Positions 15,487 to 32,597 of a DNA stretch of 32,597 bases are shown piece by piece. The notes below the pieces were generated by a model that had not been told where the DNA came from, did not search any database, and saw only the letters and a list, made by a program, of their open reading frames with translations. The stretch is from Synergistaceae bacterium (GTDB taxonomy: Bacteria > Synergistota > Synergistia > Synergistales > Synergistaceae). Every line of letters starts with the position of its first letter. Position 1 is the first letter of the stretch. A program made the position numbers and the translations under genes. The stretch spans positions 1 through 32,597 of the forward strand of contig JAISZL010000071.1 of assembly GCA_031269245.1 (NCBI GenBank), given 5' to 3'.

Positions 15487-17192
15487 TTCGCCGCCCCCTC
15501 GTCCGGGGCGAACAGTATGTAGTGCTCGTTCCGGGTCATGTGCACATACTCCCCCGTCCGGGACTCGCGGAACGTAAAGGGCCCCGTCCCTATCAGCTCC
15601 GTGAGCTCCGTGCCGTCCAGGGCCCTGTGCGGCCGGTTGGCGGGCTGCCACGCCCTCCAGTCGGCGACGTTTTGCAGTATGTGTTTCGGCAGCACTGGCA
15701 TCCCCCCGATGTTGTGCAGGTGCCAGTAGCTGGTGTTGGACATGGCGACGCGGATTGTCCTATGTGCCGCGTCGGTCTCGACCGATTCCACGTCCTTCAC
15801 CAGGTCGAAGAAGCGGGGCACGTTGTTGTCCTTGATGAAGCCGATCGTGAAGGCCGCGTCATCGGCGGTGAGGGGCCGCCCGTCCTGCCACTTGAGGTTT
15901 GGGCGCAGCGTGAACGTGAAGACCGATCCCCTCTCCCCCGTAGACACGTCCCAGCTCGCGGCGAGCCACGGCAGGTCCTCGAAGGTGTAAGGGTTGACGG
16001 ACAGCAGGGAGCCGTACACGGTGCCCAGAACGGTCCAGTCGTAGGCTGTCGAGGAGACGAGCGGGTTCAGCGTCCTTATCTCGTCGCCTATGTTCCAGTA
16101 GATGGGGCGCTCGCCCCCCTCCTTCGGGGACATGGATATGAGCGTCAGCTCGTTGTCCGACGCGGAGCGGTCCGTCGTGAAGACGCCGTTCCAGTCCTTG
16201 CGTATCGACGAGATCGAATAGCGGCTGTATATGGGGATCACCGGCATCAGTTCCGACAGTATTTCTTGAGCGCGCGACGCCATATCCCGCGCCGTCCGTT
16301 CGTCGGGCGCGTAGCGCAGCCCGTCGAGCACGCGGTCCAGCTCGGCGTCCGCTATCCCGCTCATGTTGTACCCCCCCTCAACGTCCATCGACGAGTGGTA
16401 GAACGAGTAGAGCACGTCCGGGTCGCGGGACATCGTCCACGCGTTCGTGCAGGCGTCGAAATCCCGAACGTCGATGCGCGCCAGCATCGTCTGAAAATCC
16501 ATCGGCTCCGCCTCGATCGGGACGCCTATGGAGCGCAGCGTCTCCGACACCAGCTCCGCTATCTCCGTGGACGTGGCCGCAGCGGACGAGGGCGGGCACA
16601 AAAGACGTGTCGGCGGGACAGGACGCCCGTCAGGCGCCGCGAGCCACCCGGAGCGGTTCCACGTCCACCCCGCGTCCGCGAGGCGCTTCCTCGCCGCCGC
16701 AACCCCCGGCGTCCGCCTCCCCGCCGCGGGCTCGTGGTAGGGCGAGATATGCGGCAGGAACCCCGTCAGCGGCTCGCAGTACCCGGAAAAGAGGTCGCGC
16801 GTCCATCGCCCGCGGTTCGCGTCCACCGCCTGCGAGGCCGCCTGCCGCAGTGCCGTCTGGTCCCACGGGAACTTGCGTGTGTTGAAGGTGACGAAGAATC
16901 CGTGGAAGCCGGACGCCGCCGACAGTTCCGCGAAGTCCGACTCGGCGAGGCGATCTATGTCCCCCGGCCTGTAAATGTCCGACATAACGTCGAGCTTCTT
17001 CGTCGACATGGCTAAGAGCGCCGCGTCCATATCCCTGGTTATGACATAGTAGAGGTCCCTCATCTTCGGCCCCCGGAACGAGAATATGTCGAACGACGCG
17101 CCCTCCCCCTCCGAGGCCGCGGCGCGTAACGCGCACACCACGAGAAGGACGGAGACCCACAGCGAGCGAAATTTTTTTTTCATGCCGAACAT
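15483..17192 (-). CDS. Family-5 ABC substrate-binding protein with apparent circular permutation
   Basis: This is the periplasmic binding protein of the importer, likely for oligopeptides or a similar ligand. The 569-residue chain has a signal peptide (about 1-27); ATG at 17183 (MKKKFRS) is an alternative start better spaced from GGGGAGG. The order of segments is unusual. Residues 35-345 match the part of SBP_bac_5 proteins normally at the C-terminus: DAALLAMSTKKLDVM (56-70), FFVTFNTRKFPWD (99-111), RQAASQAVD (116-124), ARKRLADAGW (167-176) and ILSELMPVIPIY (311-322). Residues 360-569 match the normal N-terminal part: TLNPLVSSTAYDW (374-386), LPWLAASWDV (407-416), LRPNLKWQDGRPLTADDAAF (429-448), LPKHIL (501-506), GTGPFTF (535-541) and NEHY (555-558). 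Together they make one complete domain set, rearranged. The frame is intact and it leads the dpp-like operon. Confidence 0.88.
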   Translation of the reverse strand: MFGMKKKFRSLWVSVLLVVCALRAAASEGEGASFDIFSFRGPKMRDLYYVITRDMDAALLAMSTKKLDVMSDIYRPGDIDRLAESDFAELSAASGFHGFFVTFNTRKFPWDQTALRQAASQAVDANRGRWTRDLFSGYCEPLTGFLPHISPYHEPAAGRRTPGVAAARKRLADAGWTWNRSGWLAAPDGRPVPPTRLLCPPSSAAATSTEIAELVSETLRSIGVPIEAEPMDFQTMLARIDVRDFDACTNAWTMSRDPDVLYSFYHSSMDVEGGYNMSGIADAELDRVLDGLRYAPDERTARDMASRAQEILSELMPVIPIYSRYSISSIRKDWNGVFTTDRSASDNELTLISMSPKEGGERPIYWNIGDEIRTLNPLVSSTAYDWTVLGTVYGSLLSVNPYTFEDLPWLAASWDVSTGERGSVFTFTLRPNLKWQDGRPLTADDAAFTIGFIKDNNVPRFFDLVKDVESVETDAAHRTIRVAMSNTSYWHLHNIGGMPVLPKHILQNVADWRAWQPANRPHRALDGTELTELIGTGPFTFRESRTGEYVHMTRNEHYILFAPDEGAAK

Positions 17193-17476: not shown

Positions 17477-17486
17477 GGGGGGGGGG
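17477..17486 (+). repeat. Homopolymeric G10 tract
   Basis: Ten consecutive G residues lie in an otherwise AT-rich leader, inside repeat unit 1 and about 75 bases upstream of promoter-like sequence P1. The second unit has no equivalent tract. Runs of this length are prone to slippage and in other bacteria can alter transcription by changing spacing. Confidence 0.6.
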
Positions 17487-18762: not shown

Positions 18763-20961
18763 ATGAGAAGGGCTCTCTCCCCTGTAATTATCTTAGCGGC
18801 GTTTTTTTTAAGCCCGTTGTTCGCGCCGAGCCTGGCCGAGGCTCAAGGCTCGGCGGCGAACCAGGGTTACGCCGGCCTCTGGGAGTACCCGACGGCGGAG
18901 ATGCCGGACGACGGGTGGGGGCGATTAGGTTACACGAACGCTTCGCCTTACGTGTACGGCTACGTGAATTTGGCCTGGCTGCCTTGGCTGGAGGTAAACG
19001 CGCGCCTCACGACTTTTGACAATATATTCGTCTCGCCTGGGGGCCCCATCAACGACAGGGGCATTGGGCGGGATTACATGGACAAGGCTATAGACCTCAA
19101 GGCGATGCTGCACCGCTCCCGCAACTGGTACATGCCATCAATTGCCCTGGGAATCACGGATCTCATGGGAACCGAGCTTATGAAGGCCTCATATGGTGCG
19201 GCCACCTGGCGAATCGACGGACTTGCCCTCACTGCTGGATACGGCACGGACAGGATGAACGGTTTTTTCGCCGGTGCATCGTGGCGTGTTGCCGACTGGC
19301 TGGAGCTGAAGGCGGAGTACAGCCCGATGGACTACTCGGGTGACGGGGCGGGCGGCTTAAAGGCTCACCCCGCCCCGGCGGACTCGAAGTACAACTTCGG
19401 CGCGGTGTTCGAGGCGCCGTGGGGGGTGCAGGGGTCTGTGAGCTGGCAGAGGGGAGAGGAGCTGGTCTTCTCCGTTTCGCGGAGTTTCAGCCTGGAGGGC
19501 CCGTTTTTGCGGGGCCGCGGGGCCGTCAAGGAGAGGCGTTACGAGGCTCCGGGCGCGGCAAGGGTCGCGGAGTGGGAGGACATAGCGCCGGAGCGAGTCA
19601 GCGAGCGGCTCATCGACGCGCTGTCGCAATACGCGAGGGTGCGCGGCGTCGAGGTTGCGATAGGGGATAGGGAGATCGTGGTGGCGTACGAGAACTACGG
19701 CCACGCGTCGCAGGCCGAGGCGATGGTTCGGGTTTTGGTCATCGCGGCGGCGGTTGTCCCGCACCTTGACGCGGTGTATCTGGTTCCGAGGGTGCGCGGC
19801 GTGCCGGTGGTGTCCGCGAGGTTTCCGGGGGAGATCTTGTACGCGATTCGGACGAGGGACGTGGAGCGGCGTCCGCTGGACGATGCGAGGTTCGCCTGGG
19901 CGGGCGCGGATTTTTTGGACGTTTTTGATGGGTTTGGCGAGTTTGCCGGAGCGGATCGGGAGGAGAGGTTGTTCCGCGGTGAGAAGTCACCGCGGGGGCG
20001 CGCGGATCAGGACATAAAGGCGATGCTGGTTTACGAGCCGCGCATAGACCAGACGCTTGAGGACGACTATCAAAGCCGCTGGAGCGTTGACATGATTTAC
20101 GAGAAACGCTCCTCGAATGGCTGGTCCGCGTTCGCCGACGTGCGTGTCCCTGTTTTCAACGACGTTGATATATGGTGGGAGCCGGACATGAACGACCGGA
20201 TTCGCCTTCAGCAAGCGGTATTGAGTTATTTGGCGAATTTAGGGAATTTAGGGAAGTCCGGGCATGGTCTCTGGTCCTTGAGTGAGTTTGGCTGGCTGGA
20301 CGAGAACTGGTTTGGGGCAAACCAGTGGGCGAGGGTTTACTCGCGTAACGGCCGTCTGTGGGGCGGGGTGAGGTTTGGTGTGGTAAGGGACCGCGACCCT
20401 TTGGCCTTCGCCGGTCTCCCGAAGGGGAGGGTGGAGTACGGCAGGGGTTGGAGCTACGGGGACGACGCCAATCCGTGGCAGCCGGTATGGTGGCTGCAGG
20501 CGGGGTATGTGTTTTCCGGCATTGGACTCGACGTTCAAGCGGACTATGGGCGTTTCATAGACACGGACACGGGCGCGAAGCTGTCGTTGACCCGCAGGTG
20601 GGACGACTCCGCGGTGGGTTTTTGGGTATCGAGGACGGACCGTCTCTCGCCTGGCAAGGATTTCACCGCCGCCGGCATTCATCTGGAGCTGCCCGCGGAG
20701 CGTTGGTTCGGCGACTGGCTGGGGGCTCCGAGCGCGCACATATGGGAGCAGGAGGTGCCGCTTCTTTCGACCTGGCGCATTGACGCCGGCCGGGAGCCGG
20801 GGAGTTGGAGGACTCCGGACAGGGTCCTGTCGCAGTTTCGCCCGGCTGAGCTGAAAAAAAACGTAGAAAAATTTCTGGCGGAGTACTGCGCATACGAGCT
20901 GTCCGCAAAGGACGAACAGAAGATACGCGCTCTAACGGATTACATAATAAAGAAAAAATAA
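18763..20961 (+). CDS. YjbH/GfcD-like outer-membrane exopolysaccharide protein
   Basis: This probably works at the outer membrane in polysaccharide secretion. The 732-residue protein has a signal peptide ending near SLAEA (about 26). Just after it comes GYAGLWEYPTAEMPDDGWGR, matching the 'G-L-x-x-P-T-A-x-M-x-x-D-G' opening of the YjbH family, followed by strand-like segments rich in Tyr/Trp. The middle (about 265-345) resembles a periplasmic alpha/beta region (RLIDALSQYARVRGVEVAIG), and the C-terminal part has repeated amphipathic strands (FGVVRDRDPLAF, WWLQAGYVFSGIGLDVQADY). This fits the double-barrel model proposed for YjbH/GfcD. The ribosome-binding site is weak. No yjbE, yjbF or yjbG homologue is beside it; an SLBB exporter is downstream instead. 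Confidence 0.82.
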   Translation: MRRALSPVIILAAFFLSPLFAPSLAEAQGSAANQGYAGLWEYPTAEMPDDGWGRLGYTNASPYVYGYVNLAWLPWLEVNARLTTFDNIFVSPGGPINDRGIGRDYMDKAIDLKAMLHRSRNWYMPSIALGITDLMGTELMKASYGAATWRIDGLALTAGYGTDRMNGFFAGASWRVADWLELKAEYSPMDYSGDGAGGLKAHPAPADSKYNFGAVFEAPWGVQGSVSWQRGEELVFSVSRSFSLEGPFLRGRGAVKERRYEAPGAARVAEWEDIAPERVSERLIDALSQYARVRGVEVAIGDREIVVAYENYGHASQAEAMVRVLVIAAAVVPHLDAVYLVPRVRGVPVVSARFPGEILYAIRTRDVERRPLDDARFAWAGADFLDVFDGFGEFAGADREERLFRGEKSPRGRADQDIKAMLVYEPRIDQTLEDDYQSRWSVDMIYEKRSSNGWSAFADVRVPVFNDVDIWWEPDMNDRIRLQQAVLSYLANLGNLGKSGHGLWSLSEFGWLDENWFGANQWARVYSRNGRLWGGVRFGVVRDRDPLAFAGLPKGRVEYGRGWSYGDDANPWQPVWWLQAGYVFSGIGLDVQADYGRFIDTDTGAKLSLTRRWDDSAVGFWVSRTDRLSPGKDFTAAGIHLELPAERWFGDWLGAPSAHIWEQEVPLLSTWRIDAGREPGSWRTPDRVLSQFRPAELKKNVEKFLAEYCAYELSAKDEQKIRALTDYIIKKK

Positions 20962-21094: not shown

Positions 21095-23287
21095 TTGAAG
21101 AGATCGAGCGCATCGACCGTATTGATCATAAGCCTATACGCGGCACTAGCCCTGCTGGCCGCGCACGCGGCCAGCGAGTCGCAAGCGGCGGTGTTAACCC
21201 CGGCGCCCGCGGCGCAGCCGCCCCAAGCCGCCGAGGCCGCCGCGCCGCCCGAGGCCGCGCCGTCGTTCCAGCCCGCGGCGGATACGGCGTCCGGCGCCCC
21301 AGCCGTTGCTCCCGCCCCGGCTGCGGAAACGCCGCTGGAGTCCGATGGGGACGTCATCGACCTTGCCGAGGTGAACCAGTACTTCGAGCGGATGCTGGAG
21401 ACCCCGAACGTGGTGGGAAACCCCGTGGGCTCGCTCATACGCCGTCTCCCGCGCTATGGCATGTCATTCTTCAGGCAGCCGCCGTCGACCTACGCTCCGC
21501 TTGACAGGGTGCCTGTGACCTCCGGTTACGTGCTGGGGCCGGATGACGAGCTTGTGATCACCCTCTGGGGGATGATCGAGGGCAGCTACAGCGTGAGGAT
21601 AAACCGCGACGGCCTGGCGAACGTCCCGCACGTCGGTTCCGTGCGCCTGACCGGGTACACGCTGGAGGAGGCGAAGAGCGCGCTCAAGGCGGGGTTCGAC
21701 CAATATTTCAACGATTACAAGATGAACGTCTCGATGGGCGCTCTGCGCTCCGTCACGGTTTACGTGACGGGCGACGTGAGGAGGCCCGGGGCGTACACGG
21801 TATCGTCGTTCGCGACGCTCGTAAACGCGCTGCTGGCGTCAGGCGGCCCGTCGGGCTCCGGTACGCTGCGCGGCATCGAGCTGAAGCGCGGGGGGAAGAC
21901 CGTGACGACGTTCGACATGTACGACCTCCTTCTGAAGGGCAGCAAGTCCGGGGACGTGAGACTCCAGCCCGAGGACGTCATATTCGTGCCGCCCGTAGGC
22001 CCTCTCGTGGGGTTGGCGGGGGAGGTCCGCCGTCCCGGTGTCTACGAGCTGAAGGGCAGGACGACGGTGCGTGACCTGCTGTACCTCGCCGGCGGCACAT
22101 CGGCGCAGACCTTCAAGGGCCGCGTTCAATACTACAGAATACAGGATTCCCACTACCGCTCGGTGTTCGAGGGCGACGCGGCTGGGTTGTCGGGCACGGT
22201 CCTCTCCGACGGGGACGTTCTGCGCCTCTTCCCGGTCATGGACGTCCCGACGGTCGTCAAGATATCCGGCCCTGTCGGCCGTCCGGGGACATACGGCGTG
22301 GTGCCCGGCGTGACTCGGGTGAGCGAGTTGATATCGCAGGCCGGTGGGCTGCTGGTCACCGCGTCCGGCAGGGCTGAGCTGACGCGCGTCACCCCGACGC
22401 GGGAGGGGCCTGTGACGGCGCGGTTCCAGATCGACCTCCAAGCCGCGTTGAGGGGCGAGCCGGGGGACGACATGGCGCTGGAGTTGAACGATTATCTCAT
22501 GGTGCATATCATCCCGGAGTGGGAGACGCAGCGGATCGTCAACGTGGCGGGCGAGGTGATGTACCCCGGAACGTATGCCGTGATGAAGGGGGAGCGCATC
22601 TCCGACGTGATACGCAGGGCCGGCGGGTACACCCCGAAGGCGAGCCTGAGGGGCGCGGTGTTCACCCGCCGTCGAGTCGCCGTCGAGCAGCGCCGCGAGC
22701 TGAACCGCGCCGCCGACCAGTTGGAGAGGGACTTGGTGGAGGCCGAGAGCAGGGCGGTGCGAAACGATGCCTCGGCGGCGGCGGACGCCCGGCGTCGCGA
22801 GCTGATAAACAGGCTCCGCGATATCGACGTGCTGGGCAGAGTCGTCGTAAAGCTGGACGTGCCGGACGCGATGAGGGGAACCGTGTGGGACATGGAGCTG
22901 GAGGACGGAGACGCCATAAGGGTGCCGGAGGTCCCGTCCACCGTCGAGGTGATGGGCGCCGTCTACGCGGCGTCGTCGCAGGTTTACAACCCGCGCATGG
23001 GTATCAACGACTACGTCAACGCCGCCGGCGGTTACCTGCGGGCGGCGCACAAGAGGATGATCTACCTGTTGAAGGGAGACGGCACGGTCGTGCGCCTGAC
23101 GAGGGACACGAGCGCGTTGTCGAGCGGGAAGTGGACCGCGTCCAAGGGGCTCTCCGCCGCGGTGGAGCCCGGCGACACGATAGTGGCGCCGGTGAAGTAC
23201 TCTAACAGGGAGTCGATTGGCTCGTTCATGGACGCTGTCGACATCGTCTACAAGGTGGCTGTGGCGGTGGGAGTCATATTGAGGTGA
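21095..23287 (+). CDS. Wza-like polysaccharide export protein with multiple SLBB domains
   Basis: This is a periplasmic/outer-membrane polysaccharide export protein. The start is TTG at 21095 with GGAGG about 12 bases upstream, giving 730 residues. A signal peptide (about 1-32) has no lipobox cysteine, unlike E. coli Wza. A long Ala/Pro-rich linker (about 33-90) follows, then the poly-export domain (YVLGPDDELVITLWG, about 148-162; VGSVRLTGYTLEEAKSAL). A series of SLBB domains is marked by repeated motifs VTGDVRRPGAYTV, LAGEVRRPGVYEL, ISGPVGRPGTYGV, VAGEVMYPGTYAV and VMGAVYAASSQVY. A charged helical segment at about 525-575 interrupts them. The C-terminus has a hydrophobic end (VDIVYKVAVAVGVIL). 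It is larger than Wza (about 380), like the multi-SLBB exporters of group-3 systems. The DUF4177-like gene overlaps its stop. Confidence 0.92.
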   Translation: MKRSSASTVLIISLYAALALLAAHAASESQAAVLTPAPAAQPPQAAEAAAPPEAAPSFQPAADTASGAPAVAPAPAAETPLESDGDVIDLAEVNQYFERMLETPNVVGNPVGSLIRRLPRYGMSFFRQPPSTYAPLDRVPVTSGYVLGPDDELVITLWGMIEGSYSVRINRDGLANVPHVGSVRLTGYTLEEAKSALKAGFDQYFNDYKMNVSMGALRSVTVYVTGDVRRPGAYTVSSFATLVNALLASGGPSGSGTLRGIELKRGGKTVTTFDMYDLLLKGSKSGDVRLQPEDVIFVPPVGPLVGLAGEVRRPGVYELKGRTTVRDLLYLAGGTSAQTFKGRVQYYRIQDSHYRSVFEGDAAGLSGTVLSDGDVLRLFPVMDVPTVVKISGPVGRPGTYGVVPGVTRVSELISQAGGLLVTASGRAELTRVTPTREGPVTARFQIDLQAALRGEPGDDMALELNDYLMVHIIPEWETQRIVNVAGEVMYPGTYAVMKGERISDVIRRAGGYTPKASLRGAVFTRRRVAVEQRRELNRAADQLERDLVEAESRAVRNDASAAADARRRELINRLRDIDVLGRVVVKLDVPDAMRGTVWDMELEDGDAIRVPEVPSTVEVMGAVYAASSQVYNPRMGINDYVNAAGGYLRAAHKRMIYLLKGDGTVVRLTRDTSALSSGKWTASKGLSAAVEPGDTIVAPVKYSNRESIGSFMDAVDIVYKVAVAVGVILR

Positions 23288-23616
23288 GGAGAAGGAGGCG
23301 TTTTGTCCCTGAATCGCTTCTGGCGCTGGCGGCGCTCTTGGCGTGGTTCTGCGCCCCGCTCGCCGCTTCGGGCTCGCCGTCGGTCAGGTACGAGTACAAG
23401 CTGGTGAGTCTGGGTTCCCTGTCGGCCCTCCAGAAGGGCGGCGATGCGAGTGACAGGAGGAGTGCTGACGCGGAGGCCGCGCTGAACGAAGCCGGTTTGG
23501 ACGGCTGGGAGATGGTGAGCATCTTCGCTGTGCGCACGACTTTTGACCCGAACGTGTTTTTTGCTGTTATGAAGAGGCCAATACCGGACCAGGGGAAGGA
23601 AGGCGAACGGCAGTGA
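23284..23616 (+). CDS. Small secreted or membrane-anchored DUF4177-like protein
   Basis: The function is unknown. It starts with GTG overlapping the exporter stop by four bases and has 110 residues. A basic N-terminus (MRRRRRF) and hydrophobic segment (about 12-28) form a signal peptide or anchor. The mature part fits the DUF4177 pattern: an opening YEYKLVSLGSL, then EAALNEAGLDGWEMVSIF, the 'LN-x-x-G-x-x-GWE-x-V' signature. It is translationally coupled on both sides (exporter and sugar transferase), so it is probably made in step with the polysaccharide machinery. DUF4177 proteins are usually orphan; this position suggests a periplasmic accessory role, which is inference. Confidence 0.72.
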   Translation: MRRRRRFVPESLLALAALLAWFCAPLAASGSPSVRYEYKLVSLGSLSALQKGGDASDRRSADAEAALNEAGLDGWEMVSIFAVRTTFDPNVFFAVMKRPIPDQGKEGERQ

Positions 23617-25070
23617 AAAGTGAAGGCACAACGGGAATTCACGGCATCACCGCTTTCGGAACGACGCTCTACGGCGTGCTGGAGGCTGCGAAAAGCGCAT
23701 TGACGCAGGTGGCGCAGGCGGCGCTGGACCTTTTGGTTTATTGGATATGCCTGGAGCTGGTGCTGAAGCTGCGAGGCGCATCGCAAACCGGATTTTTGCC
23801 GGAACACGGGCTGTTCTTCTGCGGCGTCATATTCGTCTGCTTTTATTTTCGCGCGCTCTACCAGTTTCGAACCTGGATGTTCTGGGACGAGATGCGGGAG
23901 GTTTTGAAGGCCGCCGCCGCCGCGCTGCTCATAATAGCGGCGTTTCTCTTCGCGGCGAAGCTGCAGCTCTCGCGCGTAGCGGTCGTGGCAGGGTTTGCCC
24001 TATTCGTGCCAAACTGCCTCGCCGTCAGATACTTCTTCAGGAAAGCGCTCTTTTCGCTGGGCCTTCGGAGAACGCCCATATTGGTCATGGGCGCCGCCAA
24101 GACGGGCGAGCTCTACGTACGGAAGGTGAAGAGCCACCCCTTCATGTGTTGCGAGGTCGTGGCGTTTCTGGACGACGACCCGCTGAAGAAGGGCACGGTT
24201 GTCGAGGGCGTCCCGGTTCTGGGGAGGTTGTCGGATTTCCGGAGCGTCCAGCGCGAGCTAGGCGTGTCGGAGGTGGTAATAGCGATCTCCACAGCGTCGC
24301 GCGATCTGCTGGCCCAGATACTGGAGACCGTGGAGATGAGGGTCAAGCGCGTTTCGTACATACCTGACATGTACATGCTGACGACGTTCTCCGCGTCGAT
24401 CCGTGACGTCGACGGAGTGCCGCTGATCTCGGCCTCGCAGGGCCTTTTGAGCCCATTCAACAGGATTGTCAAGGGTGTAATGGACTACGCGGGCGCGGTG
24501 CTGGCCCTGCTGGTTTTCTCCCCCGTCTTTTTGTATGCCGCCTGGAGGATAAAGCGGGACGACGGCGGGAGGGTGTTTTTCAAGCAAAACAGGGTGGGGC
24601 GTAGGTTGAAGGAGTTTAAGGTGTATAAATTTCGGACTATGATCCCGAACGCGGAGTCCATGCTGAAAGACCTGCTGAAGGACGACGACGTGCGGCGGGA
24701 GTATGAGGCGGTGTTCAAGCTCAAGGACGACCCGAGGATAACCAGGGCGGGCAAATTTTTGCGCAGGACGAGCCTCGACGAGATACCGCAGATTTTCAAC
24801 GTCTTGAAGGGCGAGATGAGCCTGGTAGGCCCGAGGCCGTTCGTCCCGTGGGAGATAGAGCCGCGTTACGGAGATGCCGCCGCTCAGATATATAAAGTCA
24901 AACCCGGCCTGACAGGGCTCTGGCAGGTCAGCGGGCGCAACAACATATTAGACTTCCAGCACAGCAGGAATTTGGACCTGTACTATATATACAACTGGTC
25001 CCTCTGGCTGGATATAGTGATAATCATCAGAACGATTCAGATATTGATCAACGCCGACGGGGCTTATTAG
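23613..25070 (+). CDS. wbaP: Undecaprenyl-phosphate sugar phosphotransferase (WbaP type)
   Basis: This starts the repeat unit by transferring a hexose-1-phosphate to undecaprenyl phosphate on the cytoplasmic side of the inner membrane. The GTG start overlaps the upstream stop by four bases. The 485-residue length equals WbaP. Four N-terminal helices (about 30-140) are followed by a CoA-binding-like fold (ILVMGAAKTGELYVRKV and FLDDDPLKKG) and the catalytic bacterial sugar-transferase domain from about 285. Key segments are the membrane-reentrant helix, KQNRVGRRLKEFKVYKFRTM, LRRTSLDEIPQIFNVLKGEM (the DE-x-PQ catalytic region), SLVGPRPFVPWE, and the end VKPGLTGLWQVSGRNNILDF. The sugar (galactose in WbaP itself) cannot be assigned with certainty. 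Confidence 0.93.
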   Translation: MKSEGTTGIHGITAFGTTLYGVLEAAKSALTQVAQAALDLLVYWICLELVLKLRGASQTGFLPEHGLFFCGVIFVCFYFRALYQFRTWMFWDEMREVLKAAAAALLIIAAFLFAAKLQLSRVAVVAGFALFVPNCLAVRYFFRKALFSLGLRRTPILVMGAAKTGELYVRKVKSHPFMCCEVVAFLDDDPLKKGTVVEGVPVLGRLSDFRSVQRELGVSEVVIAISTASRDLLAQILETVEMRVKRVSYIPDMYMLTTFSASIRDVDGVPLISASQGLLSPFNRIVKGVMDYAGAVLALLVFSPVFLYAAWRIKRDDGGRVFFKQNRVGRRLKEFKVYKFRTMIPNAESMLKDLLKDDDVRREYEAVFKLKDDPRITRAGKFLRRTSLDEIPQIFNVLKGEMSLVGPRPFVPWEIEPRYGDAAAQIYKVKPGLTGLWQVSGRNNILDFQHSRNLDLYYIYNWSLWLDIVIIIRTIQILINADGAY

Positions 25071-25085: not shown

Positions 25086-25458
25086 ATGGGTTTTATTGAA
25101 TTAAACAAGACAATATGCAAAAAGATTGGATCAATCTTTCCGAATACGAGATTTAATATTTACAACCATTACGTCGATTTAGTGAAGAGTAAAATTTGCG
25201 ATGGGAATGTCGTGTTGGACATAGGCGGTGGAAAAAGATGCATATATGCAAGACAGATGTTATTTCGGCGCGTTGTCGAGTTTGCTCGAGCGTAACGGCT
25301 TTAGGGATATAGAGTTTTCTTTCAGCTACAATCAGTCGTCGTATTTCTCTTTCTTCCTGCCGTGCTATTGGGTGAGCATAGTCTGGGACTATTGCGTGTA
25401 TCTGCTGGGAGTGAGGAATTTGTGCGCGTATGTTTGTTTTGCGGCGAGAAAACGGTGA
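25086..25458 (+). pseudogene. Class I SAM-dependent methyltransferase, internally deleted remnant
   Basis: The 5' part encodes a normal N-terminus with the SAM-binding motif VVLDIGGGKRCIYARQ (about residues 43-58), then ends 12 codons later. From about 25258 a different frame carries what looks like the C-terminal part of the same family: CYFGALSSLLERNGFRDIEF followed by SYNQSSYFSFFLPCYW and ending NLCAYVCFAARKR. The intervening part of the domain, including motifs II-IV, is missing (I estimate about 140 residues from family layout), and the join near 25257-25262 is out of frame. The family occurs widely in polysaccharide clusters. The gene is not expected to be functional. Confidence 0.75.
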
Positions 25459-25479: not shown

Positions 25480-25569
25480 TTGGTTAAATTTATATTTTTA
25501 CCTTTCGAACTTGACATGGATTTGAACAGATACTCTGTCTCGGAGGGAGCTTGTGCAAAAGTAAAATGA
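25480..25569 (+). other. 29-codon open frame, possible glycosyltransferase N-terminal remnant
   Basis: A TTG preceded by GAGG opens a frame reading LVKFIFLPFELDMDLNRYSV and ending at a TGA overlapping the next gene. A hydrophobic strand followed by a polar turn is like the first beta strand of GT-B glycosyltransferases. It is too short to assign, and may be the stub of a deleted gene or chance. Confidence 0.2.
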
Positions 25570-26315
25570 GAAATTTGCTCATTGAGGCGGTTAAAAACCC
25601 CGAAAAAATTTTTATAAAAATTTTAGATAATCTAGCGTGGGTGCCGGATCCTTTATATCTGAGGATGCTCTTCAGGCTGAGGACCGGAAAAAAACTTAAT
25701 CTGGAGCATCCTAAGACTTTTAACGAGAAACTTCAATGGTTAAAGTTGTATGATCGCAAACCCGAATATACGCAAATGGTGGACAAATATGCCGCGCGGG
25801 AGTGGATTTGCCGCAAATTGCGTGAATCTGGTTATGAAAACCCCGAAGAATTTCTGCCCGTACTGTATGGAAGATGGAACAGTTTTGATGAAATTGATTT
25901 TCCAAATCTGCCGGATTCATTCGTGCTTAAAACCAACAACGACAGCGGGACTGTTATACTTGTTCCCGATAAGTCGAAGTTTGACGCCAAGGCTGCGAGA
26001 AAAAAGCTCACAAGAGGACTGGCGAAAAATTATTTCAAACATGGAAGGGAGTATCAGTATAAAGATATAAAACCCTGTATCATCGCGGAGGAATATTTGG
26101 GCGATAACATCAATGACTATAAACTCTTCTGCTTTGAGAGGAGAGGAGAGGAGAGGAGAGGAGAGGAAGAGGAGAGGTTCGTGCCGTACAGGTTGATTTT
26201 GACAGATTTTTTAAGCACAAGTGTAATATCTACACGCCGGACTGGGAGCTTATGCCATTGCAGTTATTATACCCTAATGACCCAAGCCGAATATTGCCCC
26301 GCCCTGAAGGTTTGA
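25551..26315 (+). CDS. TupA-like ATP-grasp protein, 5' part, frame lost at a GAGAG repeat (phase-off)
   Basis: This belongs to the TupA-like ATP-grasp family found in teichuronopeptide and polysaccharide clusters, expected to attach an amino acid or similar group to a sugar polymer. The start is uncertain: TTG at 25551 (GGAGGG very close upstream) or ATG at 25566. Family segments present are WVPDPLYLRMLFRLRTGKKL, HPKTFNEKLQWLKLYDRKPE, DKYAAREWI, LPVLYGRWNSFDEIDFPNLP, SFVLKTNNDSGTVILVPDK and IIAEEYLGDNINDYKLFCF. From about residue 196 the frame enters six GAGAG units and emerges in the wrong frame, giving a meaningless tail to residue 254. The true C-terminal half continues in another frame to 26512. 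Removing one unit, or adding two, restores a 318-residue protein (counted with five units). Confidence 0.8.
   Translation: MCKSKMRNLLIEAVKNPEKIFIKILDNLAWVPDPLYLRMLFRLRTGKKLNLEHPKTFNEKLQWLKLYDRKPEYTQMVDKYAAREWICRKLRESGYENPEEFLPVLYGRWNSFDEIDFPNLPDSFVLKTNNDSGTVILVPDKSKFDAKAARKKLTRGLAKNYFKHGREYQYKDIKPCIIAEEYLGDNINDYKLFCFERRGEERRGEEEERFVPYRLILTDFLSTSVISTRRTGSLCHCSYYTLMTQAEYCPALKV
26136..26165 (+). repeat. Pentanucleotide tandem repeat (GAGAG)6 inside a coding region
   Basis: Six perfect GAGAG units run from 26136 to 26165, followed by a degenerate GAAGAGGAGAGG. Five is not a multiple of three, so each unit gained or lost shifts the frame. Upstream codons begin at positions divisible by 3 and downstream family-matching codons at positions leaving remainder 2, so loss of one unit or gain of two makes the frame continuous. 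Confidence 0.9.
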
Positions 26316-26512
26316 CTGAGATGATAAAAATCGCCGAAATCCTATCATCTGGTATTCCGCATCTGCGCGTGGATTTTTATAATTTCCCTGACAGGGTTTA
26401 TATCGGTGAGCTGACATTTTGTCATGGATGTGGTCATCACCCTTTTCGCCCAGACGCATATAGTGAGATATTTGGGGAATGGATTGAACTGCCGGGGACG
26501 AAGTCGCTTTAG
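26174..26512 (+). pseudogene. TupA-like ATP-grasp protein, displaced 3' part
   Basis: In the frame starting GAG at 26174 the translation reads EVRAVQVDFDRFFKHKCNIY, then TPDWELMPLQLLYPNDPS, later GIPHLRVDFYNFPDRVYIGE and LTFCHGCGHHPFRPDAYSEI, ending FGEWIELPGTKSL at a TAG. This is the expected C-terminal half of the ATP-grasp domain, including the VDFY and GELTF segments. There is no internal stop, so the only lesion is the repeat frame. It has no start signal of its own. Confidence 0.8.
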
Positions 26513-26610
26513 ATGCTCTACGCAGGAGATTTGCTCGGGGAGGATTGGTGGATGTGATTGAGAACGGGTTGGCTCGTTTTGCGAAGCGGTGCGAAAGAGT
26601 GAGAGTATGA
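26488..26610 (+). other. Short open frame ending in ATGA overlap with the next gene
   Basis: A frame of about 40 codons reads DEVALDALRRRFARGGLVDV, then IENGLARFAKRCERVRV, and its TGA overlaps the GT2 start. GGGGAGG before a GTG at 26548 could start the last 20 codons. It could be the tail of a lost gene that was once coupled to the GT2, or a coupling leader. No family is recognised. Confidence 0.25.
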
Positions 26611-27458
26611 AACGGGAAATGGCCGCGGGTGCCGCGGCTTACAGCGTGCTGATCCCAGTCTATAAAGGGGATCTGCCGGGACCGTTGAAATTTGCTGTGG
26701 AGAGCATGATGAAGCAGACCATAAAACCCGATGAGATCGTCATTGCGGTCGACGGGCCGATCGGCTCTGAATTGGAAGCCGTAATCGCGGAGTTTGAGCG
26801 CCAAAATGGCGAGGTGTTCAGCGTATATCGATATGACGTAAACGAGGGACTTGGAAAACTGCTGAACAAGACGGTCCCGCTCTGCCGGAACGAGTACATA
26901 GCCCGCATGGATGCCGACGACTATTCGCGTCCTGAGCGCATGGAAAGGCAGTTCGCGGTTTTGAGGGAGTGCCAGGAAATTGACGTTGTGGGCTGTAATG
27001 TCGATGAATTTTCCGGAAGTATTGACAATGTCATTGCCCGCGTCATATTGCCGGAAACGCCTGACGAGGTCTATGCGTTCGCGAAAAAACGCTGCCCCAT
27101 ACGACACCCCGCGCTGCTCTTCAGAAAATCCGATGTGCTCAAAATCGGCAATTATAATGTGCAGGACCGTGTGCAGGACTATGATCTTATTGTGAGGATG
27201 TTACAAAACGGTCTCAAAGTTTATAATATTCAGCAACCATTGGTGCTTATAAGGATAAGCGAGGATTTTTATAGACGCCGAGGCGGATTGCGATATTTAA
27301 AGTGCATCTATACTACGAAGAAGAACTTTCTTAAAAGCGGTTTCATGTCTCTTGGGGAGTTTATAGTCAGTTTTGGAGGACATGCGTTGGTGATTCTCAT
27401 GCCCTCCTGGTTGCGAGGTTTTATATACAATAAATTCTTGAGAAAAAAAGCGGCATGA
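26607..27458 (+). CDS. Family 2 glycosyltransferase
   Basis: This is a cytoplasmic or membrane-associated inverting transferase that extends the lipid-linked repeat unit. The ATG at 26607 is chosen for its ATGA overlap with a preceding short frame; an in-frame GTG at 26589 is the alternative. From 26607 it has 283 residues. The GT-A fold shows YSVLIPVYKGD at about 12-22, VDGPIGSELE near 48, NEGLGKLLNKTVPLCRNEYI, and the metal-binding DADD at 102-105 in ARMDADDYSRPERM. The later region (CPIRHPALLFRKSDVLKIGN and VQDYDLIVRML) matches the ED/QD-x-D acceptor motif. Sugar specificity is unknown. It overlaps the following polymerase gene by four bases. Confidence 0.9.
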   Translation: MKREMAAGAAAYSVLIPVYKGDLPGPLKFAVESMMKQTIKPDEIVIAVDGPIGSELEAVIAEFERQNGEVFSVYRYDVNEGLGKLLNKTVPLCRNEYIARMDADDYSRPERMERQFAVLRECQEIDVVGCNVDEFSGSIDNVIARVILPETPDEVYAFAKKRCPIRHPALLFRKSDVLKIGNYNVQDRVQDYDLIVRMLQNGLKVYNIQQPLVLIRISEDFYRRRGGLRYLKCIYTTKKNFLKSGFMSLGEFIVSFGGHALVILMPSWLRGFIYNKFLRKKAA

Positions 27459-28576
27459 GAAGTTGGCCGATATACCTTTTCGCGCAGTTCTTGACTTTTA
27501 TGTTTTTATTTCCCGGAAGACAGCCCGTGCCCGCGCGAAACTTGAGCGGCGGTGTCGAGGCTGAATCGCGATGGCGCAAGCATTTACTGTTTTTTTCAGC
27601 GCTGCCGCTCTTCATGCTCCTGGCGTTGCGTTATCAGGTGGGGATGGATTATATTGGTTACAGCAACGCTTATGCGGCTATTTCGCGCTATGGTTTCTTT
27701 GAGTCGGTTCAGGGTTATACGGCGTGGCTGGGTAATGGATTTGTGTATTTCTGCAAATTGATAGCGTTGTTTTTCGGGGAAAACTTTCTGTGGTATCACG
27801 CTGTTCTTGCCGCGCTCTCCATTATTTTTCTATATATGGCAATTTTTGAGAACAGCAAAATGCCGTTGCTGAGTTTGTTCATATATTTATGCGACGGCTA
27901 CTATTATATGTCGTTCAATCAAAGCAGACAGGGTCTCGCGATTCTCATCGTGTTTTTTTCCTATAAGTATATTCTTGAAGACCGTTTTATGCCATTCGCG
28001 CTGACAGTCTGGGCCGCTTCGTTGATTCACCCTTCCGCTTGGGTTTTTCTCCCGGCGTTTTTCCTGGCGAAGAGCAAATTCAACGTAAAGACCGCTTTGG
28101 TTTTTGCCGTCGCTGGACTTGTTCTGACGAATGCATGGGGTGTCGTTGAGGGGCTAGTCGTTCTTACTCGTTATTCGCATTATATGATGAGTTCTTATCA
28201 GGGTAACGTCGCGTGGGTTGAGACAACAGTGTTAAGGGCTTTATATCGCGCGGGCGTTTTTGGGCTTTGTTTGTTTTTCAGGAGACCCGTCCTGCAAAAG
28301 TATCCCAACGCTGATTGTTTATATGTATTGTGCACGGGCTCTCTTGTTTTACAAGCGATGTCCCTGCGATCGTATGTTTTTGCCAGAACCGTTCTTTACT
28401 ACTATATTGGCATGCTGCTGCTGATTCCGTATGTAGTGAAGTCGATTGGGAAAAAGAGCCAGGTGATTATTCTCGCTGCCCTGGCCGTTATTTTCACCGC
28501 GGCTCATATTTATTACTTTGCGGCTAAAGCTGATACACTGCTGGCCCCTGTATATCGGACTTTTTTGTGGGAGTGA
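27455..28576 (+). CDS. EpsG-family membrane protein, probable polysaccharide (Wzy-like) polymerase
   Basis: This is probably the polymerase that joins repeat units on the periplasmic face of the inner membrane. The 373-residue protein has about 10 predicted helices. The EpsG pattern is visible: RYQVGMDYIGY after the second helix (family 'R-x-x-x-G-x-D-Y-x-x-Y'), then SFNQSRQGLAILIVFFSYKY and LIHPSAWVFLPAFF, the conserved 'N-x-x-RQ' and 'H-x-S-A' motifs. Wzy proteins are poorly conserved, so the assignment rests on the EpsG motifs and on this being the only multi-spanning protein in the locus other than the initiating transferase. It starts in an ATGA overlap with the GT2. Confidence 0.85.
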   Translation: MRSWPIYLFAQFLTFMFLFPGRQPVPARNLSGGVEAESRWRKHLLFFSALPLFMLLALRYQVGMDYIGYSNAYAAISRYGFFESVQGYTAWLGNGFVYFCKLIALFFGENFLWYHAVLAALSIIFLYMAIFENSKMPLLSLFIYLCDGYYYMSFNQSRQGLAILIVFFSYKYILEDRFMPFALTVWAASLIHPSAWVFLPAFFLAKSKFNVKTALVFAVAGLVLTNAWGVVEGLVVLTRYSHYMMSSYQGNVAWVETTVLRALYRAGVFGLCLFFRRPVLQKYPNADCLYVLCTGSLVLQAMSLRSYVFARTVLYYYIGMLLLIPYVVKSIGKKSQVIILAALAVIFTAAHIYYFAAKADTLLAPVYRTFLWE

Positions 28577-28600
28577 TCCAAATTGCAAGGGGGTAGTGAT

Positions 28601-29677
28601 AAACATATGAAATTGCTGTTTTATATCACGCGGAACAATAACGGCGGCGCGGAGCGCGTGATGACGAACCTCGCGAACGAAATGGCAAGGCGGGGGCATT
28701 CCGTCGCGTTTGTCGTTGCGTTTACCACGGAAAGCGACTACGCGCTGGAGCGCGGGGTGCGGTTGTATGATATGAAAATTAATCACCGAGGCTCGACGCC
28801 GCAAAAATTGATTTGCGCTTTCAAGCGAACAGTTGCTCTGCGCCGGGTGATAAAGAGGGAAGAGCCGGACGCTGTAATAACGTTTTTACCGTATTCCGTG
28901 GTCACGGCCGCGCTTGCCACGAGGTTTTTGAAAACCACGCTGATAGGTTCAGTACGGTGCGATCCGTCCATTAGTTTTAATAAAAACGCCGTAACCAGGT
29001 TCGGCGCGCGCTTTATATACTCGTTGGCCGATGGTTGCGTGTTCCAGACGAAACAAGCGCTGGAGTGGTTCCCCAAAAAGATGCGCGATAGATCGAAGGT
29101 CATCGGAAATCTTATAGACAGAAGATTTTTTCACACCTCGCTCACGCCTGAGAGAAGCGGAATAATTGGCGTTGGCAGACTGTCAAAGGAAAAGAGATGG
29201 GACGTCGCGATCAAAGCGTTCTCAATGGTAGCCGACAGATATGACGGTAGCTTCACAATTTACGGCAGGGATGAAAATGGAAATCTGGACGGCCTGCGCC
29301 GCTTGGCCCGGGAACTCAACCTTGCGGACAGGGTGGTGTTCGCCGGCAGCGTGTTCAATATAGAGCGAAAACTGCGGGAGTCGCGGCTGTTCGTCCTGTC
29401 GTCCGAATCTGAGGGGATGCCGAACGCGTTGCTTGAAGCGCTGGCGGTGGGGTTGCCGTGTGTTACGACCGCATTTGCGGGAGGAGAGTGCGAGTTCGTC
29501 GACAACAATGCAAACGGGCTTGTCGTCCCGGTTGGCGACGCTTCGGTTTTGGCAGAAGCGATGATCGAGGTGCTGAGCGACGATGAACTAGCCGAACGCC
29601 TGGGCCGGAACGCGAAGTCAAGCAGTGCGCTGCGATATGACCCTGACGCTGTATGCGAAAAGTGGGAATCGTTCATT
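28601..29677 (+). repeat. Long direct repeat, copy A (glycosyltransferase)
   Basis: These 1077 bases match 30879-31952 (1074 bases) along their entire length; the match starts at AAACATATGAAA and ends at GAATCGTTCATT in both. The copies flank the Wzz-like gene and lie about 2.28 kb apart. Confidence 0.88.
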
Positions 29678-29716
29678 AAATCAGTGGTTCATAAAAAAGA
29701 AGGGATGATTTCATGA
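28607..29716 (+). CDS. Family 4 glycosyltransferase, copy 1
   Basis: This is a retaining GT-B transferase. The ATG at 28607 (MKLLFYITRNNNGGAERV) has GGGGG about 12 bases upstream; a TTG at 28583 is the alternative. It has 369 residues. The N-terminal NNGGAERVM loop and the C-terminal donor site (GVGRLSKEKRWDVAIKAF near 183-200 and SESEGMPNALLEALAVGLPC near 262-281, the E-x7-E motif) are intact. It is nearly identical to the gene at 30873, with a one-codon difference and an estimated 85-90% identical residues. It overlaps the chain-length gene by ATGA. Confidence 0.92.
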   Translation: MKLLFYITRNNNGGAERVMTNLANEMARRGHSVAFVVAFTTESDYALERGVRLYDMKINHRGSTPQKLICAFKRTVALRRVIKREEPDAVITFLPYSVVTAALATRFLKTTLIGSVRCDPSISFNKNAVTRFGARFIYSLADGCVFQTKQALEWFPKKMRDRSKVIGNLIDRRFFHTSLTPERSGIIGVGRLSKEKRWDVAIKAFSMVADRYDGSFTIYGRDENGNLDGLRRLARELNLADRVVFAGSVFNIERKLRESRLFVLSSESEGMPNALLEALAVGLPCVTTAFAGGECEFVDNNANGLVVPVGDASVLAEAMIEVLSDDELAERLGRNAKSSSALRYDPDAVCEKWESFIKSVVHKKEGMIS

Positions 29717-30876
29717 GCAAGGATGTTACTTTAATTGATTATATGTATATATTCGCAAAAAACGCGAAAAAAATCGCGGGTTGCGCTCTGTTCTTGCTGA
29801 TCGCTTCTTTGCTGTACGCTTGTCTACTTCCCAAAATATACAAGGCGGAATGCCGCATCTTGCCGGTTCTTCACGGGGGAAGTGCCTCGTCGTCAATACT
29901 GTCTCAACTGGTAGGACTTGCCGGGTTGCCTAGCGGCTCGACAACGGGGGAATTGCTGTGCGGGATTTTGCTCGGTCAGACTGTAGTCGACGGTATTATT
30001 GACCAATTTGACCTGATGAATGTGTATAAGCAGGAATCTCGCCTCAAGATGCGCGAAAAAGTCACGTCCGGCATATTGCTCGCCGAAGAGGACGTGAAAA
30101 GCGGAATCGTCACCGTGGCGGTGCTGGGCGAGGATCCGGAGCGCGCCGCGCGGATGGCTAACGCTTTTGTCGAAGAGCTGAAAAAGGTCCTGCGCTCCTT
30201 GGCCATTGGCGAGGCGGCGCAGCGCCGGCTGTTTTTCGAGCAGCAGATGATCGCGGCGCAGAAGACAATGGGTGACGCGGAGGACGAGCTGAAAAGGTAC
30301 CAGGAGAAGAACGGCCTGGTCGCGATGGAGCCGCAGGTGGAGGCGATGCTGAGCTCGATGGCGGCGCTGCGGGCGCAGGCGGCGGCTAAAGAGGTGGAAT
30401 TGTCGGCGCTGAGGACCTACGCGCGGGGCGGCAACCCCGACCTGAGACGCGCGGAGTCCGAGCTGTCCGCCCTGCGGGCCGAGTTGGCTAAACTGGAACG
30501 GGAGCAGAAGGCATCGGAGGGGAGCGCTCCGTCCTCCCTGCGCGAGGCCCCGCGGTTGGGGCTGGAGTACCAGCGTAGGTTGAGAGATGTGAAGTTCGCC
30601 GCGACGATGTACGAGATAATGCTGAAGCAGTTCGAGGTCGCCAAGATCGACGAGTCGAGGGAGGCAATGGTCGTGCAGGTCGTCGATTCCGCCATGCCGC
30701 CGGATTACAAGTTCAAGCCTAAAAGGGCGAAGATCGTCGCGGTTGCGACTCTGGCGGGGCTGTGTCTGGGGATGCTGTGGGCGATATGGTCGGACTATAT
30801 CGAAGCTATGAAAAAAGATCCTGAGCAGAGCCAGGTTTTAGAGGAGATCAGAGCGATGTTCCCGTTCCGGAGATGA
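29713..30876 (+). CDS. Wzz-family polysaccharide chain-length determinant
   Basis: This inner-membrane co-polymerase sets chain length and links synthesis to the exporter. The 387-residue protein has an N-terminal helix (about 21-38, IAGCALFLLIASLLYACL), a Wzz entry segment (PKIYKAECRILPVL), a long periplasmic coiled-coil region (about 155-290: RRLFFEQQMIAAQKTMGDAE, LKRYQEKNGLV and later Ala/Glu heptads), and the Pro-rich motif plus second helix at the end (MPPDYKFKPKRAKIVAVATL, AGLCLGMLWAIW). There is no tyrosine-kinase domain, unlike Wzc. A glycine/serine-rich stretch (GGSASSSILSQLVGLAGLP) resembles the one in GumC-like proteins. It overlaps genes on both sides by ATGA and lies between the two GT4 copies. 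Confidence 0.9.
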   Translation: MSKDVTLIDYMYIFAKNAKKIAGCALFLLIASLLYACLLPKIYKAECRILPVLHGGSASSSILSQLVGLAGLPSGSTTGELLCGILLGQTVVDGIIDQFDLMNVYKQESRLKMREKVTSGILLAEEDVKSGIVTVAVLGEDPERAARMANAFVEELKKVLRSLAIGEAAQRRLFFEQQMIAAQKTMGDAEDELKRYQEKNGLVAMEPQVEAMLSSMAALRAQAAAKEVELSALRTYARGGNPDLRRAESELSALRAELAKLEREQKASEGSAPSSLREAPRLGLEYQRRLRDVKFAATMYEIMLKQFEVAKIDESREAMVVQVVDSAMPPDYKFKPKRAKIVAVATLAGLCLGMLWAIWSDYIEAMKKDPEQSQVLEEIRAMFPFRR

Positions 30877-32009
30877 AAAAACATATGAAACTGCTGTTTT
30901 ATATCACGCGGAACAATAACGGCGGCGCGGAGCGCGTGATGACGAACCTAGCGAACGAAATGTCGGGACGAGGGCATTCAGTCGCGTTTGTCGTTGCGTT
31001 TACCACGGAAAGCGACTACGCGCTGGAGCGCGGGGTGCGGCTTTATGACATGAAAATTAAGCACCGAGAGTCGACGCCGCATAAATTGATTTGCGTTTTC
31101 AAACGAGCCGCCGCCCTGCGCCGGGTGATAAAGCGGGAAAAGCCGGACGCTGTAATAGCGTTTTTACCGTATCCCGTGGTCACGGCCGCGCTTGCCACGA
31201 GGTTTTTGAAAACCACGCTGATTGATTCAGTGCGGAACGATCCGTCCGCCACTTTTAGAAACGTCGTAACCAGGTTCGGCGCGCGCTTTATACACTCGTT
31301 GGCCGACGGCTGCGTGTTCCAGACGAAGCAGGCGCTGGAGTGGTTCCCCAAAAAGATGCGCGATAGATCGAAAGTTATCGAAAATATTATGGACAGGAGA
31401 TTTTTTCACACCTCGCCCGCGCCGGAGAGAAGCGGGATAATTGGTGTTGGCAGACTGTCAAGGCAAAAGCGATGGGACGTAGCGATCAAAGCGTTCTCGA
31501 TGATAGCCGACAGATATGACGGCAGCTTCACAATTTATGGCGGAGATGAAAATGGAAATCTGGATGGTCTGCGCCGCTTGGCTAGGGAACTCGACATTGC
31601 GGACAGGGTGGTGTTCGCCGGCAACGTGTCCAATATAGAGCGAAAACTGCGGGAATCGCGGCTGTTCGTCCTGTCGTCCGACTTCGAGGGGACACCGAAC
31701 GCTCTGCTTGAAGCACTGGCGGTGGGGTTGCCGTGTGTTACGACCGCATTTGCCGGCGGAGGGTGCGAGTGCGTCGACAACAATGTAAACGGGCTTGTCG
31801 TCCCTGTTGGTGACGCTTCGGCTTTGGCAGAAGAGATGCTCAAAGTGTTGAGCGACGATGAGCTAGCCGAACGCCTGGGCCGGAACGCGAAGTCAAACAG
31901 TGCGCTGCGATATGACCCTGACGCTGTATGCGAAAAGTGGGAATCGTTCATTTTATCTGTTGCTACAAACTCCAGTAGGAGACCCCCTCAGGATATTCAT
32001 GATCCCTGA
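30873..32009 (+). CDS. Family 4 glycosyltransferase, copy 2, with antisense-derived tail
   Basis: This is a paralogue of the gene at 28607 with all GT4 motifs intact (NNNGGAERVM, GVGRLSRQKRWDVAIKAF, FEGTPNALLEALAVG). It starts with ATG in an ATGA overlap with the Wzz-like gene; MKLLFYIT begins four codons later. The 378-residue protein diverges from copy 1 at the point where the direct repeat ends (31952). Its last 18 or so residues (LSVATNSSRRPPQDIHDP) are read from DNA that is mostly the complement of the dehydrogenase 3' end. Substitutions are spread evenly between copies, so the duplication is not brand new, and both copies probably remain active with perhaps different acceptors. Confidence 0.9.
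   Translation: MKKHMKLLFYITRNNNGGAERVMTNLANEMSGRGHSVAFVVAFTTESDYALERGVRLYDMKIKHRESTPHKLICVFKRAAALRRVIKREKPDAVIAFLPYPVVTAALATRFLKTTLIDSVRNDPSATFRNVVTRFGARFIHSLADGCVFQTKQALEWFPKKMRDRSKVIENIMDRRFFHTSPAPERSGIIGVGRLSRQKRWDVAIKAFSMIADRYDGSFTIYGGDENGNLDGLRRLARELDIADRVVFAGNVSNIERKLRESRLFVLSSDFEGTPNALLEALAVGLPCVTTAFAGGGCECVDNNVNGLVVPVGDASALAEEMLKVLSDDELAERLGRNAKSNSALRYDPDAVCEKWESFILSVATNSSRRPPQDIHDP
30879..31952 (+). repeat. Long direct repeat, copy B (glycosyltransferase)
   Basis: Second copy of the 28601-29677 repeat, three bases shorter because of one codon missing near 31260. Recombination between the copies would delete the chain-length gene and fuse the transferases. Confidence 0.88.
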
Positions 32010-32597
32010 AGATCGACTTCACATCCACGAAGACACCTTTTCCTCCCCTGAGGCTCCGAATGATCGACTCCGCGCCGTCCATTTTGTACTCGTCGTGAGC
32101 CACGGCGAGTATTACCACGTCCAGGTCGCGCAGGCTCTCCCTTGGGCGTATCTCGATGCCGTACTCCTTCATCGCCTGTTCCGGACTCCCCATGGGATCG
32201 TGAACCAAAACCTCCACCCCGAACTCCCTTAGTTCTCGGAGGATGTCAGGTATCTTGCTGTTGCGGAGATCCGAAACATTCTCCTTGAACGTCAAACCCA
32301 GTATGCCAACTCGCGCCCCTCTGATTTGCGCGCAACTTCGGCAGAGCAGTTTTATGGTCTTTTGCGCTATGAATTTCCCCATGCCATCGTTGATTTTTCT
32401 GCCCGCCAGTATGACCTGCGGAATATATCCCAGCTCCTCGGACTTGTAAGTCAAATAATACGGATCCACACCTATGCAATGACCTCCCACGAGCCCAGGG
32501 CTGAAGGGCAGGAAGTTCCACTTGGTCCTGGCCGCTTTGAGCACGTCATACGTGGATATCCCCATCAGGTCAAATATCATCGCGAGCTCGTTCATCA
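31963..32597 (-). CDS. tviB: Nucleotide-sugar dehydrogenase (TviB/WbpA type), C-terminal part
   Basis: This NAD-dependent dehydrogenase oxidises C6 of a UDP-sugar, in TviB/WbpA UDP-N-acetylglucosamine, to give the uronic acid precursor. Only the last 211 or so residues are in the window; the frame is open at the right edge. The catalytic cysteine is in GLVGGHCIGVDPYYLTYK, and TKWNFLPFSPG before it and the later LTFKENVSDLRNSK segment are typical of the TviB/WbpA branch rather than plain UDP-glucose dehydrogenase. The C-terminal NAD/UDP-binding domain ends YWSL at a TAG. It converges on the GT4 gene and overlaps it by 47 bases. It probably supplies an acidic sugar for the same polymer, although it belongs to a different transcript. 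Confidence 0.9.
   Translation of the reverse strand, partial: MNELAMIFDLMGISTYDVLKAARTKWNFLPFSPGLVGGHCIGVDPYYLTYKSEELGYIPQVILAGRKINDGMGKFIAQKTIKLLCRSCAQIRGARVGILGLTFKENVSDLRNSKIPDILRELREFGVEVLVHDPMGSPEQAMKEYGIEIRPRESLRDLDVVILAVAHDEYKMDGAESIIRSLRGGKGVFVDVKSIFRDHEYPEGVSYWSL

Follow-up and report, generated by a model that had tools for sequence, protein, structure and literature searches.

A TupA-like ligase gene with a frame-shifting GAGAG array, a probable contingency locus in a Synergistaceae bacterium

The window, a stretch of 32,597 nucleotides from a draft assembly of a Synergistaceae bacterium, carries a TupA-like ATP-grasp gene which is very probably an SSR contingency locus, the switching itself being deduced from one assembly. 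Slipped-strand mispairing is the established mechanism for SSR contingency tracts, and by it the (GAGAG)n tract of this gene would gain or lose 5-bp units at replication: one in three unit-number classes (n = 2, 5, 8, 11) would give the full ligase, the remaining two would give a truncated, inactive protein, and the assembly allele (n = 6) would be an OFF allele. As the ligase is predicted to add amino acids or peptides to a polymer, switching would change how that polymer is decorated; we infer all three of slippage in living cells, ligase activity and the surface consequence. The hsdM gene of Haemophilus influenzae has a (GACGA)4 tract whose switching rate is high, like that of long tetranucleotide tracts (PMC2651432), so six GAGAG units could suffice.

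The GAGAG array and the two reading frames

The perfect (GAGAG)6 array, counted directly from the sequence, lies at 26136-26165 on the forward strand inside the TupA-like gene and is the only GAGAG run of at least two units in the window. It is followed by an imperfect tail read from the sequence (GAAGAG plus GAGAG, 26166-26176, forward strand), of which the preliminary description made no mention, and the whole array including this tail measures about 41 bp. The gene falls into two parts:

25551-26138, forward strand, 5′ half of the TupA-like gene, PF14305 positions 1-135 (E 1.4e-29)
26174-26512, forward strand, 3′ half of the TupA-like gene in another frame, PF14305 positions 136-240 (E 1.4e-22)

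The halves score 103.8 and 80.8 bits in their two frames, against a curated cut-off of 25. With six units, as assembled, the 5′ frame runs into a premature TGA at 26313-26315 and the gene is OFF; frame arithmetic gives one open frame at 2, 5, 8 or 11 units and an OFF state at 6 or 7, and five units make a protein of 318 residues, counted from TTG 25551. The start codon is either this TTG or ATG 25566, intact relatives in genome G116 begin at ATG, and ATG 25566 is the more likely of the two. The frame of the conserved protein shifts at the array and nowhere else, with no other stop; the 3′ half is open to TAG 26510-26512 through 114 codons without an internal stop, and by alignment its motifs RVDFY and GELTF are intact (family pattern RxDxY and GE(L/M)TF). 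The array thus places a pentanucleotide, not divisible by three, inside a reading frame, and because GAGAG can be read through without a stop in all frames of both strands, ON or OFF is set by the flanking frames only. Its length is beyond chance, none of eight order-4 Markov simulations of 1.26 Mb having given a tetra-, penta- or heptanucleotide array of such size.

These results agree throughout with the preliminary description, which had the gene starting at 25551 and ending at 26512 with 318 residues at five units, both ATP-grasp halves intact in different frames, the frame changing exactly within a perfect six-unit array, one frame restored by five or eight units, and the gene currently OFF. 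It had also named further stops or decay in the 3′ half, coupled with a fixed count of six units, as speaking against switching, and no internal stop was found there in the window allele.

The units were counted in the draft assembly of one genome, which is in 98 contigs, and short-read assemblers can miscount tandem units, a point which counts against the contingency locus and opens a very improbable alternative in which the true majority allele is in frame and the switchable array is still present; the array of ~41 bp is however shorter than a typical short read, and arrays of up to 20 units were resolved elsewhere in the same genome. Still less credible is programmed ribosomal or transcriptional slippage on this purine-rich, SD-like array, by which the six-unit allele would yield the full protein. 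The array is rich in GGAG/GAGG, which can pause ribosomes, but no known slippery heptamer was spotted by eye, intact relatives of the gene have no array, and similar arrays elsewhere are already in frame.

The mid-gene position of the array also counts against a contingency locus. At five units the ON allele would carry a 10-residue insert, at a site which is a short FCF-D/N-G turn in aligned relatives, and this insert would have to be tolerated in an active enzyme, as it presumably is. A sequence search found no solved structure of a TupA-like relative, and the fold predicted for the 5′ (N-terminal) half without an alignment was not usable (pLDDT 41).

The exopolysaccharide cluster, a decayed neighbour and selection on the 3′ half

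The TupA-like gene lies within an exopolysaccharide cluster (function by homology only), a surface-structure setting, with the following genes around it:

18763-20961, forward strand, YjbH-type exopolysaccharide outer-membrane protein (homology)
21095-23287, forward strand, polysaccharide export protein (Poly_export, SLBB; homology)
23613-25070, forward strand, sugar-phosphate transferase initiating the polymer (Bac_transf; homology)
25086-25458, forward strand, methyltransferase remnant, N and C ends kept and ~0.4 kb missing inside
26589-27458, forward strand, family 2 glycosyltransferase, downstream of the TupA-like gene
27455-28576, forward strand, EpsG family polysaccharide protein
28583-29716, forward strand, group 1 (GT4-type) glycosyltransferase
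29713-30876, forward strand, Wzz/GNVR chain-length protein
30873-32009, forward strand, second group 1 glycosyltransferase, similar to that at 28583-29716
31963-32595, reverse strand, UDP-glucose/GDP-mannose dehydrogenase, cut by the contig end

The two group 1 glycosyltransferases (28583-29716 and 30873-32009) are very similar and lie on either side of the Wzz gene, which may mark a site of duplication or recombination. Separately, an intergenic poly-G10 at 17477-17486 lies upstream of a minus-strand peptide-binding-protein gene (15483-17192) and may be a promoter-spacing tract.

The main rival explanation is a recent pseudogene, in which slippage left the gene permanently out of frame within a decaying locus, and we consider this unlikely. 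The preliminary description had pointed to a decayed methyltransferase just upstream, and this is borne out: compared with an intact 255-aa relative in the sister species G003 (L271), which lies downstream of the same kind of sugar transferase, the window copy misses ~0.4 kb. The remnant is thus real, decay is present in the neighbourhood of the TupA-like gene, and this counts against the contingency locus, although the methyltransferase lesion is a deletion and not a repeat, differing in kind from the lesion at the array. The locus is moreover an AT-rich mosaic, the export genes having a GC of 0.60-0.67 and the TupA-like region one of 0.41-0.46, as for imported cassettes, and elsewhere in the order a few TupA-like genes are disrupted although they contain no GAGAG array. 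Against a pseudogene stand the 114 stop-free codons of the 3′ half, and the fact that the sole lesion of the gene is a GAGAG array whose unit turns up again in other glycan genes, in some cases in frame, in a source genome with many other SSR loci.

Selection on the 3′ half bears on both readings. The window copy is the only TupA-like gene in the source genome (G000) and has no counterpart at the DNA level in any of the ten other species of the genus, and the intact, repeat-free relatives in G116 share 72% DNA identity with it. Compared with these copies, dN/dS is ~0.07 in the 5′ half, whose synonymous sites are almost saturated, and reaches 0.23-0.29 in the 3′ half, the higher 3′ value counting against a contingency locus; the intact G116 pair however exhibits the same contrast (0.17 in the 5′ half vs. 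0.60 in the 3′ half). In a relative-rate comparison to the outgroup G146, the selection check on the downstream half that the preliminary description had called for, the window gene has a 3′-half pN of 0.482, as against 0.481 and 0.469 in the two intact copies of G116, so that its 3′ half gives no sign of faster, relaxed evolution. As the divergence may for the most part be older than the array, the gene could nonetheless have been lost recently. A contingency locus still fits far better than decay, on the recurrence of GAGAG in glycan genes, the mixture of ON and OFF frames, the other SSR arrays and the lack of acceleration in the 3′ half, and the interpretation put forward in the preliminary description is supported by the same recurrence, by SSR arrays in other surface genes and by the selection result.

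Simple repeats in the source genome and across the order

GAGAG arrays of at least four units were surveyed in 183 genomes of the order. Seven were found, in the source genome and five others (G097, G085, G178, G074 and G081), and five of the seven lie in glycan, surface-modification or methyltransferase-like genes. The remaining two, one intergenic (G074) and one in a low-complexity linker of a gene resembling a phage replication gene (G081), were set aside as evidence. The second array of the source genome is a (GAGAG)13 on contig C72 (L031, 4079-4143), in frame within an orphan methyltransferase-like gene (3354-4265, 303 aa) between sensor kinase and chemoreceptor genes; no Pfam family was found in the 303-aa protein, and repeat-free relatives in G031 and G097, 45-46% identical, have a related C-terminal stretch after the position of the array. 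In G097 a (CTCTC)9 lies in a methyltransferase of a glycan cluster, with the apparent proper C-terminus out of frame (OFF). In G085 a family 2 glycosyltransferase has a (CTCTC)4 four codons past its ATG and is out of frame (OFF); when 43 genomes of that genus were examined for unit variation in this gene, its sole real relative proved to be cut at a contig start. In G178 a phosphoglycerol-transferase-like gene of sulfatase fold carries (GAGAG)9 near its start and is in frame (ON). Outside the phylum, a Prevotellaceae MAG has an in-frame (GAGAG)16 close to the C-terminal end of an FkbM-type methyltransferase (L047, 5465-6340, reverse strand). Arrays of at least eight units are rare, with 51 stretches in 84,980 species genomes, many of them intergenic; some of the matched genomes may, going by their sample naming, be termite-gut MAGs.

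The source genome holds other contingency-like loci. In the 1.26 Mb sampled (54% of the genome) there are 12 tetranucleotide arrays (5-20 units), 2 pentanucleotide arrays, 1 heptanucleotide array (12 units) and 10 poly-G/C tracts of at least 10 bases (10-19 bases), set against a null of eight order-4 Markov sequences of 1.26 Mb with 0 tetra-, penta- or heptanucleotide arrays and 2.5 poly-G/C tracts expected. Many of these tracts lie within genes for glycans or the surface, some in an ON and others in an OFF frame, as below, where frames near gene starts were called by eye on the printed sequence and homopolymer lengths, coming from a draft assembly, are less certain than those of longer-unit arrays:

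poly-G19, methyltransferase-GT2 gene, in frame
poly-G17, methyltransferase, out of frame
poly-G11, FemAB-like acetyltransferase, in frame
poly-C13, before the domain of a WbuX N-acetyl sugar amidotransferase, state ambiguous
(CCTG)5, C-methyltransferase, in frame
(AACC)13, start of a formyltransferase-like gene, out of frame
(CAGG)18, L207 3472-3543, start of a surface protein (~1,100 residues, weak match to Synerg-CTERM), out of frame when read from its ATG
poly-C17, start of an outer-membrane TPR protein, out of frame
poly-G11, secreted protein, out of frame
poly-C11, start of another secreted protein, in frame

Several further arrangements were observed in this genome. The (CAGG)18 at L207 3472-3543 and a (GCAG)9 at L202 4337-4372 belong to two genes with a nearly identical start, and one glycan region (L206, contig C69, 3660-15527) with the FemAB-like acetyltransferase and the WbuX amidotransferase holds three poly-C/G tracts of 14, 11 and 13 bases. 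Five intergenic tetranucleotide arrays with different units (L151 875-954, L170 5358-5393, L171 2335-2374, L191 911-954 and L205 447-514) all lie within a few tens of bases of a common sequence close to GCGCATCAGTAAAAACCACTATT, a multicopy intergenic element carrying SSRs. Arrays of (ATTC)7-9 near contig ends (L157 88-123, L168 4027-4054 and L184 54-81) sit in another common multicopy sequence, apparently where the assembly breaks.

Such arrays are unevenly distributed among related genomes. In 400 kb sampled from a complete genome of the same family (G015) no tetra- or pentanucleotide array was found, and of two congeneric genomes (G006 and G004, 100 kb sampled from each) one has two such arrays and the other none. 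Poly-C tracts of 13 bases or longer occur in 61 of the 183 genomes of the order, often in several places per genome, counted regardless of gene context. An orthologous pair of arrays in G023 and G038, (AACC)6 and (AACC)7, differs by one unit but lies outside genes and therefore has no bearing on gene switching.

Taken across these surveys, it is likely, with less assurance than for the window gene itself, that this Synergistota lineage has a phasome comparable in scale with those of Haemophilus or Campylobacter, with at least 12 SSR-switched glycan or surface genes in half of the genome (poly-G/C, tetra-, penta- and heptanucleotide tracts), and that GAGAG arrays have arisen repeatedly in polysaccharide-modification genes across the order. 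Within the analysis, placement in Synergistota followed from how relatives of the same order are named and from the weak match to Synerg-CTERM.

Relation to known phase-variable systems

The opa genes of Neisseria carry CTCTT repeats. These, together with the poly-G/C phasome of Campylobacter (PMC6321876), resemble the present loci in having frame-shifting pentanucleotide or homopolymer tracts in surface genes, whilst the Synergistota genome combines penta-, tetra- and heptanucleotide and poly-G/C tracts. The SSR loci of H. influenzae, among them LPS genes with tetranucleotide tracts, hsdM with its (GACGA)n and a putative LPS flippase that carries TCAGC units (PMC2651432), share with the window gene an out-of-frame coding repeat in surface-polysaccharide genes, and share with its genome the presence of several loci, pentanucleotide units included; the window gene in contrast belongs to another phylum, uses a GAGAG unit, targets a TupA-like ATP-grasp protein and is known from a single assembly. 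PF14305 is named after tupA, the teichuronopeptide synthesis gene of Bacillus halodurans (PMC8153356), and the window product is accordingly a predicted amino-acid or peptide ligase acting on a polymer, yet the B. halodurans TupA serves a Gram-positive wall polymer and the window gene sits in a Gram-negative-type exopolysaccharide cluster.

The preliminary description knew of no such example in this group of bacteria. Our search of the open literature likewise yielded nothing on SSR phase variation for Synergistetes or for termite guts, and no paper with GAGAG; inversions have been reported in one of two Synergistetes species (PMC5903667). The SSR contingency locus is of a kind already known, and for Synergistota there seems to be no earlier account of a multi-locus SSR phasome. 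This suggests that a lineage not known for shuffling its surface does so in the manner of Haemophilus or Campylobacter. If true, multi-locus phase variation would be no speciality of pathogens, and the SSR-switched surface genes of this genome could be tested with existing metagenome reads; the TupA-like ligase, and so polymer decoration, would be an ON/OFF trait, which may be relevant to phage escape and to contacts with the host or the community.
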